In this document: piece by piece, positions 56,392 to 62,031 of the stretch
Layout: every line of letters begins with the position of its first letter
Position numbering within the stretch: position 1 is the stretch's first letter
Source: Thermoactinospora rubra
GTDB taxonomy: Bacteria > Actinomycetota > Actinomycetes > Streptosporangiales > Streptosporangiaceae
Assembly (NCBI RefSeq): GCF_002093975.1
Contig: NZ_MSZZ01000032.1
Coordinates: 1 to 64,000 of the forward strand
Length of the DNA: 64,000 nt
Direction: 5' to 3'
Program-made: the position numbers and the translations under genes
The notes under the pieces: model-generated
Databases searched by the model: none
Told to the model about the DNA's origin: nothing
The model's input: the letters and a program-made list of their open reading frames with translations, nothing else

Positions 56392-56450
56392 TGTGCGGAG
56401 GCTGAGGGACGTGAACCCCTCAATGGGCGGTAAACCCAAACCGCATCGGC
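56392..56450 (-). repeat. Left attachment-site repeat (3' half of tRNA-Ser)
   Basis: This stretch repeats the 3' half of the tRNA-Ser(GCU) gene at 61213-61268. A 24-base core is identical (56423-56446 and 61241-61264), and flanking bases differ at a few sites in the T arm. Such a copy of a tRNA end about 4.8 kb away is what integration of a mobile element by a tyrosine recombinase leaves behind. Confidence 0.85.
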
Positions 56451-56538
56451 AGCTAGAAGCTTGATCGTTCCAGGGCGTTTCATGTGGGCCGATGCGGCTG
56501 CGCGGTCTCGCCGGAACGGGGTGGTACGGCGGGGAACT

Positions 56539-61212: not shown

Positions 61213-61268
61213 TGCGGAGGCTGAGGGATTTGAACCCTCGATGGGCGGTAAACCCAAACCGCATTAGC
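61213..61268 (-). repeat. Right attachment-site repeat
   Basis: This is the 3' half of the intact tRNA gene and matches 56392-56450, with an identical core at 61241-61264. It reconstitutes the tRNA, so the gene survived insertion. Confidence 0.85.
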
Positions 61269-61304
61269 AGTGCGGCGCCATAGACCTGACTAGGCGAAGC
61301 CTCC
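61215..61304 (-). tRNA. tRNA-Ser (anticodon GCT)
   Basis: A 90-base class II tRNA: acceptor GGAGGCT pairs with AGCCTCC; the anticodon arm is CCGCA-CTGCTAA-TGCGG with anticodon GCT; the variable arm is long; the T arm is GAGGG-TTCAAAT-CCCTC. No CCA is encoded. Its 3' half served as integration target for the element to the left. Confidence 0.95.
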
Positions 61305-61385
61305 TGGTAGCCATCTGGCTCAGCACAGAGTACCGGCCTTCTGGCGAGGCGGCAAAGCGGTTGTCGGGTGCGCCGTCACGGAAGG

Positions 61386-61428
61386 TTATCCACTGGCTGT
61401 GGACAACGTCGTCCACAGCTGTGGACAA
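61386..61428. promoter_or_regulatory. Cluster of four DnaA-box-like sites
   Basis: TTATCCACT (61386-61394), TGTGGACAA (61398-61406), TCGTCCACA (61409-61417) and TGTGGACAA (61420-61428) lie within 43 bases. Two are exact TTGTCCACA boxes. They alternate in orientation and include the palindrome CTGTGGAC/GTCCACAG. A fifth box lies at 62023-62031. They lie six bases from the yceI stop, outside an oriC context. Confidence 0.6.
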
Positions 61429-61434
61429 CCGTCA

Positions 61435-61995
61435 TCAAGCCGGGTTCGCCTCGCCCTCGATCTCGATCTTGACCTTCTTGCCGACCAGCACGCCGCCGGT
61501 CTCCAGGGCCTGGTTCCAGGTCAGCCCGAACTCCTCGCGGTCGAGCTCCGTGGTGATCGTGAAGCCCCAGACCGGGACGCCCCACGGGTTGGTGCCGGCG
61601 CCGCCGTACTCGACCGTGAGCTCGACCTCCTTGGTCACGTCACGGATGGTGAGGTCGCCCAGCACCGTGAACTCGTCGCCCGAGTGGCCGACGACACGCT
61701 TGGAGCGGAAGGTGATCTCGGGGTACTTCTCGACGGCCAGGAAGTCGTCGCTGCGCAGGTGGCCGTCGCGGTCGGCCACGCCCGTGGTGATGCTGTCGGT
61801 GTAAATCGTCAGCTGGGCGGACGACTCGAGCGGGTTGTCGGCGATGGTCACCGAGCCCTCGAACTTCTGGAAGCTGCCACGCACCTTGCTGACCATCATG
61901 TGCTTGACGACGAAGCCGATGGTCGTGTGTGCGGGGTCGAGGTTGTAGGTGCCAGGGGCCGGGATCTCCAGGCCTTCCCAGGTCCGAGTGGTCAT
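61435..61995 (-). CDS. yceI: YceI-family lipid-binding protein
   Basis: 186-residue lipocalin-like protein that binds long polyisoprenoid chains. The fold signature is PGTYNLDPAHTTIGFVVKHM, then SKVRGSF and LTIRDVTKEVELTVEYGG. No signal peptide is seen, so this is a cytoplasmic version common in actinobacteria. ATG 61995 follows GAGGAG by seven bases. It diverges from marR with two palindromes in between. Confidence 0.92.
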   Translation of the reverse strand: MTTRTWEGLEIPAPGTYNLDPAHTTIGFVVKHMMVSKVRGSFQKFEGSVTIADNPLESSAQLTIYTDSITTGVADRDGHLRSDDFLAVEKYPEITFRSKRVVGHSGDEFTVLGDLTIRDVTKEVELTVEYGGAGTNPWGVPVWGFTITTELDREEFGLTWNQALETGGVLVGKKVKIEIEGEANPA

Positions 61996-62031
61996 CGCGG
62001 GCTCCTCATGTAGTGCTTGCTGTGTGGACAG

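Follow-up and report, generated by a model that had tools for sequence, protein, structure and literature searches.

A compact, conserved array of DnaA boxes at the 3′ end of yceI in Thermoactinospora rubra: a candidate origin-proximal site for DnaA sequestration

The analyzed stretch of DNA from the soil actinomycete Thermoactinospora rubra (64,000 nucleotides, hereafter the window) carries four DnaA-box-like 9-mers of alternating orientation within 43 bases (61386–61428), as found by scanning the window sequence. This four-site cluster is real, lies far above chance expectation, and is evolutionarily conserved. With moderate confidence, and by analogy with the systems compared below, we propose that it may act as an origin-proximal DnaA-binding site outside oriC that sequesters DnaA. 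As such, it would probably help to limit DnaA and to time replication.

The array and its surroundings

The four boxes that a preliminary description had placed in these 43 bases are indeed present. They and the neighboring features are as follows.

61420–61428, minus strand: DnaA box A, TTGTCCACA, exact; 6 bases past the yceI stop codon
61409–61417, plus strand: DnaA box B, TCGTCCACA, one mismatch; 2 bp from box A, inverted
61398–61406, minus strand: DnaA box C, TTGTCCACA, exact; 2 bp from box B
61386–61394, plus strand: DnaA box D, TTATCCACT, one mismatch to TTRTCCACA; inverted, 3 bp from box C
61383–61430, minus strand: predicted RNA hairpin in the yceI transcript; A pairs with D, B with C
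61435–61995, minus strand: yceI (PF04264), the gene bearing the array at its 3′ end across the family
61214–61304, minus strand: tRNA-Ser(GCT), downstream of the array and in the same direction as yceI
61327–61356, minus strand: probable tRNA-Ser promoter (TTTGCC, 18 bp, TACTCT), deduced from the upstream regions of relatives
62023–62031, minus strand: fifth site, CTGTCCACA, a single box in the yceI/MarR intergenic region

Read in the direction of yceI (minus strand), the order is TTGTCCACA, 2 bp, inverted TCGTCCACA, 2 bp, TTGTCCACA, 3 bp, inverted TTATCCACT. Boxes C and D form the inverted pair common to nearly all relatives. TTGTCCACA is a high-affinity DnaA box in S. coelicolor and M. tuberculosis (PMC4285127). 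The earlier view of the sites as exact or one-base variants of the box applies to three of them but not to TTATCCACT, which is two positions off TTGTCCACA and a one-base variant of TTATCCACA only. The fifth site had been counted as a member of the array. It is most likely a chance match, because the matching place lacks it in all of the other genus loci that were checked (29/29).

The array lies 82–124 bp upstream of tRNA-Ser(GCT), with its near edge at 82 bases. The probable promoter of this tRNA gene is kept in relatives, and its distance to the array varies; a sigma-70 scan did not call it at 61327–61356. The same tRNA gene is adjoined by an integrase C-terminal fragment (PF00589, 60703–61131), and a second copy of its 3′ part, 90% identical, is found at 56395–56452. 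The partial copy and the fragment suggest the remnant of an element of ~4.8 kb integrated at tRNA-Ser. Partial tRNA copies also occur near tRNA-Ser in many relatives.

Neither dnaA nor dnaN is in the window, as already noted in the preliminary description, and dnaA is found on another contig (C1:55110–56543). The characterization of the cluster as "away from dnaA" holds insofar as dnaA is outside the window, but in the 20 relatives in which a single contig carries both dnaA and the locus, the two are separated by 120–343 kb, always on the dnaN side, and the array is downstream of dnaA in all 20. In the host genome, where the two lie on separate contigs, we infer both the distance of the array from dnaA and its origin proximity. 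The window starts with the crgA-trpG-pknB-pknA-pbpA-rodA-pstP-fha block, which is normally origin-proximal in actinobacteria. The steady position near oriC may simply reflect the synteny of tRNA-Ser and yceI.

Box density, conservation and the link to yceI

For the density count, a box was defined as TTRTCCACA with at most one mismatch, and places with at least four (or three) boxes in 60 bp were sought in 1.64 Mb, taken from seven contigs and the window contig of a genome of 8.22 Mb in 113 contigs. The array was the sole place with four boxes in 60 bp in these 1.64 Mb. Three boxes in 60 bp were found in the region upstream of dnaA and at two other places. Two simulated 8.2-Mb genomes (first-order Markov) gave no place with at least three boxes in 60 bp. 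The alternating core TCCACA..TGTGGA..TCCACA, with gaps of up to 16, has a single occurrence in the 8.22 Mb, at the array, and exact TTGTCCACA occurs 35 times genome-wide versus 10 for the reversed pattern.

When 60 relatives were searched with a query of tRNA plus array, every genome of the same genus matched, and all of the genus loci read (30/30) have two to five boxes upstream of tRNA-Ser. Among the family loci, whose sampling is biased by a query holding both tRNA and array, 69 with yceI nearby have the inverted pair, whereas none of the 24 without yceI does. Four yceI loci failed the test for the pair: in two, the array is kept directly behind yceI and another gene separates it from the tRNA; in the third, the array is degenerate, and the fourth lacks one altogether. 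In a second sample, biased in its turn toward the best yceI matches, 78 of the 80 most similar named loci have at least two boxes within 60 bp downstream of yceI. Across these 80 loci, 275 boxes fall within 400 bp downstream of yceI, compared with 10 upstream of it and 9 within its first 400 bp. The genera covered are Nonomuraea, Planomonospora, Planobispora, Streptosporangium, Spongiactinospora, Thermocatellispora, Sinosporangium, Sphaerisporangium, Microtetraspora, Microbispora, Sphaerimonospora, Planotetraspora, Rhizohabitans, Acrocarpospora, and Bailinhaonella. The two loci without an array belong to Nonomuraea deserti (L265) and Bailinhaonella thermotolerans (L343). The former also has no tRNA-Ser nearby and may therefore be another copy of yceI or a rearrangement.

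Array strength is uneven: some relatives carry two boxes only, and many Nonomuraea have the weaker box variants TTACCCACA and TTATCAACA. The distance from array to tRNA ranges from ~90 to >300 bp among relatives, and in two Planobispora about 1 kb lies between yceI and the tRNA. A literature search found no paper joining DnaA boxes with Nonomuraea.

Outside the family, no boxes were found directly upstream of tRNA-Ser in four genomes of the same order and 16 of the same class, and no array was found behind yceI at 30 loci. A link to tRNA-Ser itself is rejected on the box-less tRNA-Ser of these order and class genomes and on the lack of an inverted pair at the 24 yceI-less family loci, and a link to yceI in general on the 30 array-less loci. 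Because it is present behind yceI within the family and absent at tRNA-Ser and yceI outside it, the array is, on these comparisons, a family-level feature bound to the yceI 3′ end.

The yceI locus is not the only place where the inverted pair TTRTCCACA-N3-TGTGGAYAA occurs. At least one such pair is present in 78 of 297 genomes of the class (examples are found among L141, L143–L155, L158, L159, L161, L163, and L170), with none for the reversed-pattern control, and it adjoins dnaA in several genomes. In one genus (L145–L155), the pair has extended palindromic arms. The host genome itself carries, at C1:89553–89573 (L058 9553–9573), a perfect pair TTGTCCACA-N3-TGTGGACAA flanked by convergent genes, of which one is endonuclease IV-like; this pair lies ~33 kb from dnaA, on the opposite side to the window array. 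Three box-like sites at C1:98476–98553 (L058 18476–18553) lie 80–157 bp upstream of a gene that, identified by eye, looks like dnaB, encoding the replicative helicase, and apparently holds intein-like insertions. Three boxes of the same orientation, 11 bp apart, are found at C36:57789–57819 (L073 7789–7819), upstream of a NuoI-like ferredoxin-type frame.

Hairpin pairing and alternative readings

The shared denominator of the arrays is a closely spaced inverted box pair, with a spacing of 3 bp in 67 and 2 bp in 11 of the 78 named loci. In the window, the array is predicted to form an RNA hairpin of −34 kcal/mol (z −7.3). Part of this strength is to be expected, since inverted boxes are inherently complementary. 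It is conceivable, given this fold and its start 6 bases after the yceI stop, that the element is mainly a yceI terminator or an mRNA 3′-end hairpin insulating tRNA-Ser, the likeness to DnaA boxes being secondary. The predicted fold supplies the stem-loop of an intrinsic terminator at the 3′ end of yceI. Further support comes from 28 loci (mostly Microbispora, Microtetraspora, Sphaerisporangium, and allies), in which the inverted pair is lengthened by 8-bp arms and four spacer positions pair in 28/28, with four Watson–Crick types each; these and the following pairing statistics are raw per-locus counts that ignore kinship among the sequences. Since the arms covary, the structure seems to be under selection, at least there. 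In the same 28 loci, however, box core positions 4–9 show one Watson–Crick type only, so constraint appears to reach the sequence as well as the pairing. In the other 50 loci, changes at box positions 4, 6, and 9 disrupt the pairing and are uncompensated, and the outer arms are mostly unpaired. Hairpin formation thus appears to be selected in one clade, and box sequence to be constrained in both groups. A terminator function is also at odds with the separate GC-rich hairpin found alongside the boxes in many Nonomuraea, and with the occurrence, in another family, of arm-extended pairs close to a DnaA-like reading frame. Moreover, no T-run and no terminator-like site were found at the array; many actinobacterial terminators lack a T-run. 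Overall, we regard an RNA element of this kind as unlikely, if worth keeping in mind.

Alternatively, bound DnaA could regulate tRNA-Ser or block read-through from yceI, linking expression to replication. The array lies between two codirectional genes, a short way upstream of tRNA-Ser, and DnaA is known to act as a transcription factor (PMC11317965). Nevertheless, the distance to the tRNA is very variable, and in some relatives an entire gene intervenes. The array also adjoins the 3′ end of yceI, not its promoter, and is missing wherever tRNA-Ser occurs without yceI. Because of the variable tRNA spacing and the inserted gene, a promoter role for the array looks unlikely, and we consider regulation of this type quite improbable. 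A similarly small chance attaches to a dual element, in which the same inverted boxes would form both a DnaA-binding array and a hairpin at the end of yceI. DnaA binding would then be mutually exclusive with yceI transcription or hairpin extrusion, and local transcription would be coupled to DnaA availability.

It is very doubtful that the array is a DARS-like site, at which inverted DnaA would swap ADP for ATP and thereby be reactivated. The conserved core is an inverted close pair, and DARS boxes are likewise opposing (PMC8682772). E. coli DARS1 and DARS2 differ from the array, however, in spacing and in the orientation of the third box: their layout, read from the E. coli MG1655 record, is + [5 bp] − [3 bp] −, whereas that of the array on the plus strand is + [3] − [2] + [2] −. 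Lastly, box-like 9-mers are frequent enough to turn up here and there (10 one-mismatch matches in the window versus 5.8 expected), yet a cluster arisen by chance and without function is scarcely credible in view of the unique density and the conservation across many genera.

Proposed role and comparison with known systems

Sequestration of DnaA by an origin-proximal array outside oriC is the reading that we prefer. The suggestion of titration or initiation timing in the preliminary description still seems the best one, given the uniqueness of the array, its conservation, its origin-proximal position in relatives, and the lack of a tie to a promoter. We propose that several DnaA molecules would bind the boxes, spaced 2, 2, and 3 bp. 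Because the locus would be replicated early, the copy number of the array would double soon after initiation. The doubled array could then draw DnaA off the new origins, so that free DnaA would fall and premature re-initiation would be hindered. Lying behind yceI, the array would be a local DnaA sink or a local regulatory complex, not a promoter element. The boxes, their uniqueness in the genome, their conservation, their location in relatives, and their independence from promoter spacing are read directly from the genomes. By analogy, we infer DnaA binding, sequestration, and an effect on initiation.

Replication-initiation control outside model bacteria is poorly known. The array would offer one compact, lineage-fixed locus of ~45 bp for studying DnaA sequestration in antibiotic-producing actinomycetes, with natural variants of two to six boxes available for comparison. 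The constraints on box sequence and on hairpin pairing are separable, which makes roles in binding and in RNA structure distinguishable.

Recent work supports titration of DnaA by the E. coli chromosome (PMC12371093). The DnaA protein of this species binds single boxes far less well than pairs spaced 2–3 bp (PMC11317965); the spacing is that of the array, but these pairs are tandem and those of the array inverted. The likeness to E. coli datA drawn in the preliminary description extends to the proposed function only. Like the array, datA is a non-coding DnaA-box site adjoining tRNA genes, and it also holds a downstream inverted 3-bp pair. However, the datA boxes at 4392732 and 4392744 form a tandem pair with 3-bp spacing, whereas neighboring boxes in the array are inverted only. 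In addition, datA relies on IHF, which to our knowledge is not expected in its canonical form in actinobacteria. Because of these differences in spacing and orientation, and those from the three-box core of DARS1 and DARS2 noted above, we class the array as neither datA nor DARS.

Origin-proximal DnaA-box clusters were reportedly described in S. coelicolor by Smulczyk-Krawczyszyn et al. in 2006; the D78 cluster is among them. Such clusters are reported to repress untimely initiation (PMC4585315). Similar to the array, they are found in an actinomycete, consist of high-affinity TTGTCCACA boxes, and lie outside oriC near the origin. There is, by contrast, no evidence of orthology: no boxes were found at tRNA-Ser in a probable Streptomyces genome, a single contig of 9.17 Mb with dnaA at its center, or at five yceI loci of the same family. 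In B. subtilis, oriC-proximal DnaA-box clusters were reportedly studied by Okumura et al. in 2012. These boxes, outside oriC and near the origin as in the array, appear to lower free DnaA, and the clusters hold back untimely initiation (PMC5295017). The array differs from them in being a single yceI-linked, non-promoter site with alternating boxes 2–3 bp apart and, in one clade, hairpin arms. With origin-proximal clusters of this kind it shares an exceptional box density outside oriC and a location near oriC, observed in the 20 relatives and probable in the host genome. On the best reading, the array may be akin to the clusters of S. coelicolor and B. subtilis, at a locus and with an architecture that appear to be new.
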